This document shows positions 2,451 through 16,975 of a stretch of 42,531 nt of DNA, in pieces. The first letter of the stretch is position 1. Every line of letters begins with the position of its first letter. The position numbers and the translations under genes were made by a program. The stretch is from Dehalococcoidia bacterium. Lineage in GTDB: Bacteria; Chloroflexota; Dehalococcoidia; Dehalococcoidales; UBA2162. The notes under the pieces were generated by a model. That model ran no database searches. It was not told where the DNA came from and was given only the letters and a program-made list of their open reading frames with translations. The DNA is taken from positions 1-42,531 of the forward strand of contig DUFA01000107.1 of assembly GCA_011191975.1 (NCBI GenBank), in the 5' to 3' direction.

Positions 2451-3113
2451 TCACTTCTGATATAACTTACGCACCAGCCTCCAGGTAATAACTTCCGATA
2501 AAACGGTCACGTCCTCAGTAGTAAGATAATCCTGGATGTTGGCATCAAATATTACACTGCCTTCAGGAGGCAATTCCTCATCGCCTTTCCAGAGTACGAT
2601 CGTCACCGGGACACGGCTGAAGGCAGGTATGACTATGGATGTATCGCCTAAATCAGCTGCAACACCGCCAAAATTTTTACCAATGTCCAGCAGCCTGGCG
2701 GTATCTTTCCCGAAGTTCTCTACAAGCGGCTGAATGGTTCTCTTTGAAAAAGTCCGGAAATAAACCGGACCTTCTGGTAACTCTCTGAAAGTAATGTACT
2801 TGCCTGACAACAGTGTCCCTTTTGCCTGTGCCAAGTAATGCAGAATAAGTACTTTTTCTCTAAAGGGAATTTCGTTCTTTACTTCCTCTTGAAATACGTC
2901 AATGTCCGGAAGTATTACTGTATATTCCTCGCCCAGGTAGCTAACTTTAATGTTTCTCTTTCCATCTTTCTCGCTGTACTTACTGGCACTGTTGTCGCAG
3001 TGTCTTTCAAGATCCTTGATACTCAGTAATTTTTCCCGTACAAGCGTATAAGCTTGCTCAAGTGCATACTCATAATTCTTGTTGTCCGGTACTTCAATCC
3101 GCCTGTTATCCAT
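2451..3113 (-). CDS. DUF3786-type protein
   Basis: A soluble 220-residue protein that I recognise by its overall pattern as DUF3786. The N-terminal part is helical and charged (about 1-55). A beta segment follows, then the characteristic C-terminal stretch with FGGVAADLGD, a proline-containing strand SRVPVTIVLW and an acidic GDEELPPEGSVIFD loop. The family has no established biochemical role, but members occur in strict anaerobes that carry corrinoid and Wood-Ljungdahl enzymes. Here it lies directly downstream of the CODH/ACS operon on the same strand, behind a terminator-like hairpin. AAAGG lies about nine bases upstream of the ATG. A role in corrinoid or one-carbon metabolism is only inference. 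Confidence 0.75.
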   Translation of the reverse strand: MDNRRIEVPDNKNYEYALEQAYTLVREKLLSIKDLERHCDNSASKYSEKDGKRNIKVSYLGEEYTVILPDIDVFQEEVKNEIPFREKVLILHYLAQAKGTLLSGKYITFRELPEGPVYFRTFSKRTIQPLVENFGKDTARLLDIGKNFGGVAADLGDTSIVIPAFSRVPVTIVLWKGDEELPPEGSVIFDANIQDYLTTEDVTVLSEVITWRLVRKLYQK

Positions 3114-12382: not shown

Positions 12383-12601
12383 CTACGCAGGATTTTTCCT
12401 CTTCTCGCTCCCATACCAATCGTCGCTGTACCAGTACCTCTCGCCAGTTTTCAGATATTTCAACATGTTGTCCCTGGTGCCTAGCTTCTGTCTCCACTTT
12501 CCAAGTTCATTATCATCTGGTTTACCCTCTTCGAACGTTTCTTGAAGTAATTCCACCTCATCTCTACCAGGAGCTTTCACTTTATCGATTTTGTAGTCCA
12601 C
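12383..12601 (-). CDS. Small hypothetical protein inside the CODH/ACS operon
   Basis: A 72-residue protein starting at GTG 12601 with an almost ideal ribosome binding site (AAAGGAGG, eight bases upstream). It is soluble, rich in charged residues (Asp, Glu, Lys) and carries an aromatic C-terminal patch (GERYWYSDDWYGSEK). It has no cysteine, membrane segment or signal peptide. I do not recognise a family. It sits 16 bases after folD and 50 bases before acsD, so it must be made with the pathway enzymes. A role as a small subunit, chaperone or regulator of CODH/ACS or of the folate enzymes is inference from position only. Confidence 0.8.
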   Translation of the reverse strand: MDYKIDKVKAPGRDEVELLQETFEEGKPDDNELGKWRQKLGTRDNMLKYLKTGERYWYSDDWYGSEKRKNPA

Positions 12602-12617
12602 GAGAATTTCCTCCTTT

Positions 12618-13505
12618 CTATGCTATTCCAGCAGCCAGTTTGGCCGCTCTTACAGTATTCATCATAAGCATGGTTATTGTCATCGGTCCCACACCACCAG
12701 GGACTGGTGTGATTTTACTCGCTTTTTCTTTTACTGATTCAAATTCTACATCGCCGGCAAGAATTCTCTTGCCATCAGCTGTCTTGCCAATCTCATTTAC
12801 ACCGACATCAATTACTACCGCGCCTTCCTTAACCATATCGGCTTTGATGTAGTTCGCTACACCCGCAGCTACTATTAAAATATCGGCTCGTTTGGTATGG
12901 AAAGCCATATCCTTAGTCCTTGTATGGACAACCGTTACTGTAGCATTGGCGCCAGGTGCTTTCTGCAACAATATATTGGCGATAGGCTTGCCTACAATAT
13001 TACTCCTGCCAACTACGACTACCTCGGCTCCTTCGATCTGCGTACCGGAGCGGATAAGAAGCTGCTGAATACCTGCCGGAGTGCATGGCAGATAATGTGG
13101 TTCGCCGATCATCAACTTACCGACGTTTACCGGATGGAAACCATCGACATCTTTTTCAGGATCAATTGCGTAGAGAACTTCTTCTTCATTAAGATGTTTA
13201 GGTAAAGGTAGTTGTACCAGGATACCGTTGATCTTCGGGTCTTTATTGAGCTTATCAATGAGTTTCATAAGCTCTTCCTGAGTCGTATTTTCGGGAAGGT
13301 CGTATCTTTCAGAATAAATACCAAGTTCCTGAGAGGTTTTTTCTTTCTGGCCTACATATACTTGTGAAGCCGGGTCAGCCCCTACCAGAACCGTTACCAG
13401 ACCGGGTACTACATTATGTTTTTCTTTTAGTTCGGCTATCTCCTGCTTTAGCTCTTCTCTTATTTCCTTGGCTACTTGTGCTCCTTTAATAAGTTCTGCA
13501 GTCAT
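12618..13505 (-). CDS. folD: Bifunctional methylene-THF dehydrogenase / methenyl-THF cyclohydrolase
   Basis: FolD converts 10-formyl-THF to methenyl-THF and then reduces it to methylene-THF, the two middle steps of the methyl branch. At 295 residues it is full length. The catalytic YVGQKEK motif (Tyr and Lys of the YX3K pair) is near residue 51. QLPLPKHLNEEEVL, the DVDGFHPVNVGKL signature and the NAD(P)-binding VVVGRSNIVGKP loop are clear, and the C-terminus shows TPVPGGVGPMTITML. Because FolD does both reactions, the absence of a separate fchA gene is explained. The gene lies 25 bases after cooC1. Confidence 0.97.
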   Translation of the reverse strand: MTAELIKGAQVAKEIREELKQEIAELKEKHNVVPGLVTVLVGADPASQVYVGQKEKTSQELGIYSERYDLPENTTQEELMKLIDKLNKDPKINGILVQLPLPKHLNEEEVLYAIDPEKDVDGFHPVNVGKLMIGEPHYLPCTPAGIQQLLIRSGTQIEGAEVVVVGRSNIVGKPIANILLQKAPGANATVTVVHTRTKDMAFHTKRADILIVAAGVANYIKADMVKEGAVVIDVGVNEIGKTADGKRILAGDVEFESVKEKASKITPVPGGVGPMTITMLMMNTVRAAKLAAGIA

Positions 13506-13530: not shown

Positions 13531-14304
13531 CTAAATCCCCACCTTTTCGGTGGATAGAATTTCATCCATCAAGTTATTGATGGCTGTCACAGCCTTCGAA
13601 TCATCCGGCAGTTCAACAAGCGGTCTGGCTTCAAGATCATATTGGTATATTTCTTCGTCTCTGGGGATTATAACCGGAGGTTCAATACCGAGTAATTCAA
13701 GCTCTTCTTTCACCCGTGGAGCAAGTTCATCCTGAACTGAATTAATTATCACGATTTGCCTGCCGACTACCAGCTTAAGTTCAGATACCAGGTCCATGAT
13801 CCGTGCAACGGTTCTGATACCCTTGACCGAATGGTCTGACACTATAAATAATACATCGATATTCTGGGTAGTTCTCCGACTCAGGTGTTCCATACCTGCT
13901 TCGTTATCCATCACGACGTATGCGTAATTTCCCGACAGATCATCGGCAAATTTCCTCAGTAAAGCGTTCGGATAACAGTAACACTCAGGTCCTTCACCCC
14001 TTCCCATTGTGATAAGATCCAGTCCCTTGCTTTCTGTGATTGCTCCGTTCAGCTTTATTTCAAGGTACGCTTCTTTTGTCATCCCGGGTGGTATATTAAT
14101 CTTATCACCATTAAATGAAGCAATAATCGAACCTATAGTTATGTCAACATTAAGCCCAAGGCTATCCGCCAGGTTCGCGTTGGGGTCGGCATCGATCGCC
14201 AAGATCGGTCCCGACCCCTTTTTCTGCAAATAGCGGATGACAAGACTTGACAGTGATGTCTTACCAGTGCCGCCTTTACCGGCGACAGCGATTGAAAAAG
14301 TCAA
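13531..14304 (-). CDS. cooC: CooC-type nickel-insertion ATPase (copy 1)
   Basis: CooC/AcsF proteins are MinD-like ATPases that deliver nickel to CODH or ACS. The deviant Walker A loop AGKGGTGKTS is at residues 8-17. A Cys108-X-Cys110 pair (ECYC), which binds metal at the dimer interface, follows. A conserved Asp-rich strand AIDADPNANLA is at 36-46. Length is 257 residues. It lies between fhs and folD. A second, divergent copy begins the operon. The two may serve the CODH C-cluster and the ACS A-cluster separately, which is inference. Which one corresponds to AcsF cannot be read from the sequence alone. Confidence 0.92.
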   Translation of the reverse strand: MTFSIAVAGKGGTGKTSLSSLVIRYLQKKGSGPILAIDADPNANLADSLGLNVDITIGSIIASFNGDKINIPPGMTKEAYLEIKLNGAITESKGLDLITMGRGEGPECYCYPNALLRKFADDLSGNYAYVVMDNEAGMEHLSRRTTQNIDVLFIVSDHSVKGIRTVARIMDLVSELKLVVGRQIVIINSVQDELAPRVKEELELLGIEPPVIIPRDEEIYQYDLEARPLVELPDDSKAVTAINNLMDEILSTEKVGI

Positions 14305-14344: not shown

Positions 14345-16108
14345 CTAGAATAAGCCCTGTACTTTGCCTGTCTTCACATCGACGTCTACTCTCCGCAGAG
14401 CAGGGTCCGAACTGGTCCCCGGCATAAGTGTAATTGTACCAGCAACCGGACACAGGAACTTGGCGCCTGAATATATCAGGACATCCCGCACCGGCAGAGT
14501 CCATCCTTTAGGAACACCCTTGAGATTCGGATCATGAGTAAGACTCAGATGAGTCTTGACCATCATTGTTGCGTATTCGTCATACTTCGGATCTTCTTCG
14601 AATTTCTTGGCTTTCGCTTCAGCTTCTGCAGTCCATGAAACCCCACTAGCTCCGTAAACTTCCTTGGCGATTAAATTAACGCGTTCCCTTAGCTTCATCT
14701 CGTTCGGATAGAGGAATCTGAATTCATTTTCATCCTCACAGGCTTCCTTGACGACATCCGCAAGCTCAAGAGCTCCGTCGCCACCATCAGCCCAGTGACT
14801 ACTCTCGGCAACTCGTGCACCTGCAGCTTCCGCAGCTTTTTTGACTATAGCTACTTCGGCTGGGGTATCGGTGTGGAACTTATTGATACATACTACAGGA
14901 TTGATGCCTGATTTCCTGATAACGCCGATGAGATGTTGCATATTTGGCAGACCCGCTTCTACCAGACCGAGATTTTCTTTGGTGTATTCTTCGGGAAGTT
15001 TTAACCCGGCTACTACTCTCGGTCCGCCACCATGCATCTTTAGAGCCCGAATGGTGGTGGTCAGAACTGAGACATGAGGTTTAAGTCCGCTGTAACGGCA
15101 TTTCACATTCCAGAATTTCTCGAAACCGATATCTGCTGCAAAGCCACTTTCTGTAATGTGGTAATCAAACATCTTCAAACCGATTCTATCGGCGATGATC
15201 GACGATTGTCCGACAGCAATATTAGCGAAAGGTCCGGCATGTACGAGGCAAGGTTGATACTCTGCTGTGCACATCAATGTCGGATTGATGGTATTCCTCA
15301 TCCACGCTGTCATCGCACCACCGACCTCAAGATCACCGGTTGTTACCGGATTCCCTTTCTTGTCGTAGGCCACTGTGACCTGGTCCATTCTCTGACGAAG
15401 ATCCGCAAGATCGGTGACAATAGATAGCATCGCCATTAACTCGGAACTGACCGCGATACCGAACTTGGACTGCATCAGAAAACCATCCATGCGCCCGCCC
15501 AAGCCTATGATAATATTCCTCAGACTCTGGGCACAGAAGTCGATAATCCATCCCATTTCAACTCTGGTAGGGTCAACATCGAGTCTACGCATACGTGTCA
15601 GTTTCTCAAGTCGTTCGTCATCATAATTTCTTTCGTGCTGCATCCTTGCTGTCAGAGCGACCATCGCAAGGTTATGAGCATTCATAATATCATTAATATC
15701 ACCGGTGAGACCCATGGAAAACTCGGTCATCGGGATGAGTAATGAATTGCCACCGCCTGCTGCGGTACCTTTTATATTCATGGTCGGTCCACCCGAAGGT
15801 TGGCGTAATGCACCGCCTACGTTCATACCGCGTTTCCCCAATCCCTCTATAAGACCGCAAGAAGTAGTGCTTTTCCCTTCACCCAGTGGTGTGGGTGTGA
15901 TAGCAGTTACTTCGATATACTTGCCGTCCGGTCTGTCCTTCAGACGATCGATAATTTTCAAAAAGTCCAGTTTAGCTATTCTCCCATAGGGTAGAACTTC
16001 ATCCTTTTCCAGTCCCAGGTTAATTCGCCATTCATCTGGCGTAGGCATATTCACTTCAGCGGCTTCGGAAATTTCCCAGTCCTTCATTTTTACAGCATCG
16101 TAAGCCAT
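14345..16108 (-). CDS. fhs: Formate-tetrahydrofolate ligase
   Basis: Fhs activates formate with ATP to give 10-formyl-THF, the entry step of the methyl branch. The P-loop [12 protein letters not shown] is at residues 71-82, and [19 protein letters not shown], a family signature, follows. The C-terminal part has [13 protein letters not shown] and [14 protein letters not shown]. The 587-residue length is slightly above the usual 555-560, the extra residues being near the N-terminus and in loops. AGGAGG precedes the ATG. The stop is TAG. It is the second gene of the operon, and no formate dehydrogenase is nearby, so formate must come from elsewhere. Confidence 0.97.
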
Positions 16109-16186: not shown

Positions 16187-16975
16187 TTATAACTTTGATA
16201 TTGTTTTTTCGGTGCTAGCAATTAGCTTGTTATAAATCTCCAACACTGAATTCCTGACTTGCTCACTCGATTCCAAGGGCGATAGATTGGCATGATCGGC
16301 TTCAATTACTGCCTGGTCATATGGTATAAATCCCAGAATAGTAAAATCGGGCAGGTACGATATTAGAAATTCCCTGTCCGATTCATTTCTGACTTTATTG
16401 CCTACAACAACAAGATTTTCTAACCCAATCTCAGATGCAAGCCCCTTGATACTGGATGCAGTCTCAATACTACGCCTGCCGGGTTCTACAACTATTATAA
16501 GCTTATCGACTGCCCTTGCGGTTCCTCTCCCCAGATGTTCAATTCCGGCTTCCATATCCATTATCACCACTTCATTTCTAGCAAGAAGTAAGTGAGACAT
16601 CAAGGTCTGGAGTAAAGCGCTTTCCGGACAATAACATCCGGCACCACCTCTTTTCACTCTGCCCATGAGCATCAGTCTGATGCCATCCATTTTCTTAGCA
16701 AACTTTTCCGGGATATCATCGACCTTTGGATTTAGTTTGAAATAAGGGGCTGATTGACCAGGTCGTGCTCCGGTTCTTTCTTCGATAAGGTCTGCCATTT
16801 CGGAGATAGGTGTTATATTATTCGGGTCAGGAAAACCGAGTGTTGCTGCCAGGTTTGCATCGGGATCAGCATCAACAGCAATAACTGAATATCCGGATTG
16901 AGCGAATATTTTCGCCAAGAGAGAAGCTAATAGGGTTTTGCCTACTCCGCCTTTTCCGCTTATGGCAATCTTCAT
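16187..16975 (-). CDS. cooC: CooC-type nickel-insertion ATPase (copy 2), first gene of operon
   Basis: A second MinD-like maturation ATPase, 262 residues. The Walker A loop SGKGGVGKTL is at 6-15, the AVDADPDANLAATLG strand at 33-47, and the metal-binding Cys114-X-Cys116 pair lies in GGAGCYCPESA, the form most typical of CooC. It differs clearly from copy 1 (for example VKRGGAGCYC against RGEGPECYC), so this is an old duplication or separate acquisition rather than a recent copy. It is the first gene after the operon promoter, with a 5' leader of about 75 bases. Its likely job is nickel loading of CODH or ACS. Confidence 0.92.
   Translation of the reverse strand: MKIAISGKGGVGKTLLASLLAKIFAQSGYSVIAVDADPDANLAATLGFPDPNNITPISEMADLIEERTGARPGQSAPYFKLNPKVDDIPEKFAKKMDGIRLMLMGRVKRGGAGCYCPESALLQTLMSHLLLARNEVVIMDMEAGIEHLGRGTARAVDKLIIVVEPGRRSIETASSIKGLASEIGLENLVVVGNKVRNESDREFLISYLPDFTILGFIPYDQAVIEADHANLSPLESSEQVRNSVLEIYNKLIASTEKTISKL

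Follow-up and report, generated by a model that had tools for sequence, protein, structure and literature searches.

What does a gene of only 72 codons do in the middle of an operon for CO dehydrogenase/acetyl-CoA synthase (CODH/ACS), the core of the Wood–Ljungdahl pathway and among biology's oldest CO2-fixing enzymes? The question is raised by the window, that is, the whole stretch of 42,531 nucleotides analysed here, in which the minus strand carries, in this order, cooC, fhs, cooC, folD, the short reading frame (its 72-residue product is called SMALL below), acsD, cooS, acsB, acsC, acsE, metV, and metF. A study published in 2026 on this pathway in Desulfobacterota describes bacterial CODH/ACS as five proteins, AcsA to AcsE, and in its available part mentions no further subunit (PMC12827605). 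With a conserved sixth gene, linked to AcsD and CODH, in Dehalococcoidia, Desulfobacterota, and several other lineages, it seems that the textbook account, which is based on Clostridia, omits a component, and the bacteria concerned matter in sediments and syntrophy.

The reading frame and its operon

The features on which the following sections draw are:

12383..12601, minus strand: SMALL, a reading frame with 49 homologues, an alignment, and purifying selection; core W36-R68, WRxKL..R....L.YL....RYWYS.DWYGSEKRK
12610..12619, minus strand: Shine–Dalgarno sequence AGAAAGGAGG, read directly, overlapping the folD stop codon
11385..12332, minus strand: acsD, small (delta) subunit of the corrinoid iron-sulfur protein (CFeSP); Pfam CdhD PF03599, NCBIfam NF003377 with 588 bits
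9389..11407, minus strand: cooS/acsA-type CO dehydrogenase catalytic subunit; TIGR01702, PF03063
7142..9349, minus strand: acsB, acetyl-CoA synthase; NF040764, PF03598/PF19436
5719..7095, minus strand: acsC, CFeSP large (gamma) subunit; PRK04165 with 625 bits
4831..5709, minus strand: acsE, methyl-THF:CFeSP methyltransferase; NF005719 / NF040758
12618..13505, minus strand: folD; PF00763/PF02882; upstream neighbour here, of variable position among homologous loci
13531..14304, minus strand: cooC-type ATPase 1; PF01656; at other loci directly upstream of SMALL, where folD stands here
14345..16108, minus strand: fhs, formate-THF ligase; conserved in the synteny maps, named from sequence

The first-pass annotation had described a 72-codon frame between folD and acsD with a near-perfect ribosome binding site. 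Such a frame is present at exactly 12383-12601 of the minus strand, where the listing of reading frames gives it a GTG start and the coding order 12601 to 12383, with AGAAAGGAGG 8 nt upstream of the GTG; the plus strand of the same interval is interrupted by stops. The frame is separated from folD by 16 nt and from acsD by 50 nt. Its product (MDYKIDKVKAPGRDEVELLQETFEEGKPDDNELGKWRQKLGTRDNMLKYLKTGERYWYSDDWYGSEKRKNPA) is indeed charged and ends, as had been noted, in an aromatic stretch (RYWYSDDWYGSEKRKNPA, with the tail WYGSEKRKNPA), and it has neither Cys nor His.

Two further observations concern the ends of the operon. The cooC-type ATPase genes at 13531-14304 and 16187-16975 flank fhs within the same operon, each perhaps acting on a different nickel enzyme or site. 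Near the other end, 3' of metF and on the same strand, lies a gene for a DUF3786 protein (PF12654; window positions 2451-3113).

Homologues, conservation, and a fixed place beside acsD

One scan of genome contigs yielded 49 homologues of SMALL with 41-76% identity, from Dehalococcoidia, Deltaproteobacteria (Syntrophorhabdus, Syntrophus), a Spirochaetes MAG, Ratteibacteria, 'Candidatus Zymogenus', and a Myxococcales MAG, these lineage names being those of the deposited titles, under which bins may be mislabelled. At all 49 loci SMALL immediately precedes acsD, in the same orientation, and the usual order downstream is acsD-cooS-acsB; a frame lacking homologues beside acs genes outside this genome is thereby excluded. 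Upstream, either folD or cooC is found depending on the locus, as folD, cooC, and fhs all shift position. Because the upstream gene varies while acsD is fixed, the constant partner of SMALL is acsD and not folD. The link to CODH/ACS proposed earlier is well supported as a tie to acsD and CODH (by adjacency, fusion, and joint absence, see below), but given up with respect to folD, which is often elsewhere.

Among 34 aligned members, W36, R55, Y56, G64, S65, E66, K67, and R68 are invariant, and no Cys or His is conserved. Comparison of the window frame with close relatives revealed differences at 40-53 of about 70 third codon positions and at 8-22 first or second positions; third positions are thus saturated while the protein is still about 60-74% identical, which indicates purifying selection. 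The SMALL frame is a real gene.

Searches of Pfam and NCBIfam gave no significant match to the SMALL of the window and none common to the 34 members, a PDB sequence search returned nothing below E 0.2, and a fold search with a weak SMALL model nothing at E <= 0.001. The earlier statement that the protein belongs to no recognised family therefore withstood all of these sequence searches, in which no family unrelated to the pathway came up either. Its description as an orphan, in contrast, is correct only as regards curated families, given the 49 homologues in several phyla. No paper naming SMALL was found in open-access text, and we regard it as a new and so far undescribed part of an established system rather than as a new kind of system.

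Fusion to AcsD

Within the phylum of a Desulfobacterota-type genome, SMALL was found in 38 of 247 genomes, and in 7 of these 38 it forms the in-frame C-terminal end of AcsD. The fused proteins consist of AcsD (about residues 1-312), an extension, a long low-complexity linker rich in Ala, Pro, and Glu, and SMALL as the last residues, which end in YGSE(K/R)RKKPA. Part of the extension, EGALCEIVQIMDMPVNLAPGHAIALIKSV, is conserved in six of the seven and occurs in a diverged form in L118. All seven genomes group as a single clade of the AcsD tree (support 96), and no second, separate copy of SMALL was found in them. The subfamily model nearest to the fused proteins, NF003377 (PRK04452.1-3, AcsD with C-terminal extension), for which the AcsD of the window also scores above the cut-off, has 432 positions, which span AcsD and some of the extension; it stops before the SMALL part, which it does not describe.

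AcsD is also found joined to the CODH catalytic subunit by an Ala/Pro-rich linker in single frames at two loci (L126, 1-2874, and L141, 2316-5684; 1150 and 1123 residues in full, respectively), in both of which SMALL remains a separate gene just upstream of the fusion. This argues that SMALL is not just a tether made superfluous by fusion.

Co-occurrence and joint absence with CODH

SMALL was matched in 98 of the 156 genomes of the window's order, 90 of which also have CODH; 8 genomes have SMALL only, 12 CODH only, and 46 neither (Fisher p 4e-20, without correction for kinship). Within this order the presence of SMALL thus goes along with that of CODH, the eight SMALL-only genomes being mostly incomplete MAGs. 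Five of the CODH-only genomes were inspected and comprised three contig-end cuts, one truncated CODH match, and one true absence of SMALL (G735, L167), and most of the remaining cases are partial CODH matches at contig ends. In the class, of which 197 genomes were covered, there are five clear cases of SMALL, each with CODH and AcsD of the window's type; a sixth match (G036) is weak (E 0.003) and lies away from acs genes.

In Dehalococcoidaceae, a family name that we infer partly from the fact that D. mccartyi is known to have no CO dehydrogenase (PMC6113397), the order cooC-folD-acsD-acsB is kept and AcsD is of the window's type (62-69% identity), and both SMALL (from the folD/acsD gap) and cooS (from the acsD/acsB gap) are missing. 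The same joint absence was observed in a syntenic cluster of another family (G159). That SMALL is missing together with CODH where acsB, acsD, and cooC stay suggests a tie to CODH and not to the maturation of ACS.

One locus of a different kind (L026, 2708-4439) carries SMALL and acsD alone between NuoF/HydB-like genes and a CooF-like ferredoxin gene; its source MAG (G202) yielded no CODH gene.

Extent of the association

In Desulfobacterota the association does not run in both directions. Among the 247 genomes of the Desulfobacterota-type phylum, AcsD was found in 161 and CODH in 153, against 38 with SMALL, so that CODH often occurs without SMALL (e. g., at L130, L132-L134, L137, L151, L154, L156, and L164), and in several acsD-cooS-acsB clusters without SMALL no other recognisable conserved small reading frame was found in its place. 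These many clusters led us to abandon the notion that CODH invariably requires SMALL. Among 107 placed loci, which were gathered partly through SMALL itself and are not a random sample, 68 have SMALL and CODH beside acsD, 25 have acsB next to acsD and no SMALL, 13 have CODH next and no SMALL, and one has a fused SMALL with acsB next. SMALL belongs to one CODH/ACS arrangement and is not a universal part of the system.

In the AcsD tree SMALL changes seven times, too few for significance in an independent-pairs test after kinship correction; in both analyses L158, which has a 100-N scaffold gap at the SMALL site, was scored as lacking the gene. No convincing set of AcsD residues was found that is kept only where SMALL is present. 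Columns of CODH and AcsB that track SMALL were set aside as confounded by kinship. According to the Desulfobacterota study, the AcsC and AcsD of Chloroflexota fall inside the clade of Desulfobacterota (PMC12827605), in keeping with the occurrence of SMALL in both groups.

Structure prediction

For SMALL alone, AlphaFold2 predicted two short strands and helices at residues 36-39, 43-52, and 55-58 (pLDDT 65, pTM 0.32). A complex prediction, which the first-pass annotation had put forward as a check, did not bear out the proposed contact: in a read-through chain of SMALL, AcsD, and CODH from L027, where the three genes happen to share one frame and stops were read as Gly, AcsD folded well, the confidence of SMALL dropped to 28-63 per block, and no docking of SMALL on AcsD or on the CODH monomer was obtained, a result of low power given 68 alignment rows, a monomeric CODH, no coordinates or interface scores, and the absence of AcsB and AcsC.

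Relation to known systems

Small extra polypeptides have precedents in CODH systems. The archaeal ACDS epsilon subunit (CdhB), which is built mainly around a Rossmann fold and attaches to the alpha subunit of CODH, resembles SMALL as a small additional polypeptide linked to CODH in a CODH/ACS/CFeSP system (PMC11474084). SMALL differs from CdhB in its 72 residues, its lack of a Pfam or PDB sequence match, and its link to acsD; neither the family models nor the Rossmann fold of CdhB were recognised in it, although the SMALL model used in the fold search is weak. CooT, a beta-sheet protein that binds Ni via Cys2, and CooJ, which does so via a His-rich tail, are likewise small proteins from CODH operons (PMC6006190). 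Unlike CooT, the SMALL of the window lacks Cys, and its family has no conserved one; unlike CooJ, with its His-rich C-terminal domain, it also lacks His; no match to either family was found in the Pfam and NCBIfam scans.

A further parallel comes from multienzyme complexes, in which flexible linkers carry small docking domains such as the subunit-binding domain of dehydrogenase E2. The fused form of SMALL shares with such domains a short module, a long Ala/Pro/Glu-rich linker, and a carrier protein, yet no relation in sequence or fold was found and the likeness is one of analogy.

Proposed role and alternatives

Three findings in combination, namely the fixed pairing with acsD, the linker fusion to AcsD, and the absence shared with CODH, point to a role where the corrinoid protein meets CODH-ACS. 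In its encoding SMALL fits an accessory component of bacterial CODH/ACS, as it lies in the acs cluster and is conserved across lineages. Our preferred reading of these genomic patterns, the most likely of those considered although at about even odds, is that SMALL represents a so far undescribed accessory subunit of bacterial CODH/ACS, confined to certain lineages and working alongside AcsD and the catalytic subunit of CODH, perhaps as a docking subunit between the corrinoid protein and CODH. The AcsD fusion lends indirect support to SMALL being physically part of the complex, and the AcsD-CODH fusions bring together the same two proteins to which SMALL is linked. In mechanistic terms, SMALL and AcsD are products of the same operon, and the N-terminal strands, the C-terminal helix, and the aromatic/basic tail (RYWYSxDWYGSEKRK) of SMALL would form a small docking module, poorly ordered alone, that may help to keep AcsC/AcsD, the corrinoid iron-sulfur protein, on the core of CODH-ACS, whereby methyl transfer and CO production would stay coupled; in one clade, the same putative module is covalently joined to AcsD by its long flexible linker. 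The status of a stoichiometric subunit, the binding surfaces, and the docking role are what we infer from these patterns. CFeSP is free-standing in acetogens and stably bound in the ACDS complex of methanogens (PMC11474084). SMALL might even be a previously unrecognised sixth subunit that keeps the corrinoid protein stably on CODH-ACS, which would give these bacteria a supercomplex of the archaeal ACDS type where acetogens have a free-standing CFeSP; this is conceivable but tentative and on balance somewhat doubtful. A protein joining the parts of CODH/ACS could make the complex accessible, and the natural AcsD-SMALL fusions are ready test material.

The main rival to an accessory subunit is a transient factor that would work with CooC in the assembly or maturation of nickel CODH (folding, loading, or dimerising it) and be absent from the finished enzyme. 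It would account for the frequent position of SMALL directly after cooC and for its loss with the CODH gene where acsB, acsD, and cooC remain, and small Ni-binding accessory proteins do exist in some CODH operons, namely CooT and CooJ (PMC6006190). However, SMALL matches neither family, a metal-chaperone role is unlikely for a protein without Cys or His in the window and without a conserved one in its family, and it is acsD, not cooC or cooS, that SMALL adjoins and fuses to, so that we consider this explanation rather unlikely, if worth serious attention. The strict adjacency and the fusion to acsD would be expected if SMALL were part of CFeSP only, stabilising AcsC/AcsD or shielding the corrinoid independently of CODH. 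Such a role is less likely, since Dehalococcoidaceae and G159, where CODH is gone, retain AcsD but not SMALL; furthermore, AcsD residues do not track the presence of SMALL and docking on AcsD was not seen with AlphaFold, which renders it distinctly improbable.

The shortness of SMALL, its tight packing between genes, and its strong ribosome-binding site would suit a regulatory or translation-coupling frame (leader peptide) with a product of little consequence, but the amino-acid sequence is conserved across phyla at saturated third positions and SMALL persists as the C-terminal part of fused AcsD, the fusions in particular making this very unlikely. A chance frame or annotation artefact, as short length, a GTG start, and the lack of a curated family might suggest, is refuted by the 49 homologues at the same locus, the matches in 98 of the 156 genomes from the window's order, the fusions, and purifying selection, and retains practically no probability.

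Further extensions of AcsD

Other modifications of AcsD were also encountered. At L130, L132, L133, and L134, the AcsD frames (531-541 residues) bear a long Lys/Glu/Ala-rich C-terminal extension with no SMALL at its end, and these clusters also have no separate SMALL gene. In several Desulfobacterota-type genomes, MetF and AcsD share one long open frame of 761 residues and more (L138, 585-3209; L139, 3819-6536; L140, 3881-7000; L142, 4097-7000; L143, 4206-6488), with an intervening stretch of roughly 120-450 residues that has no Pfam match in L138 and L143. A MetF-AcsD fusion would link the methyl branch of the pathway to the corrinoid protein.
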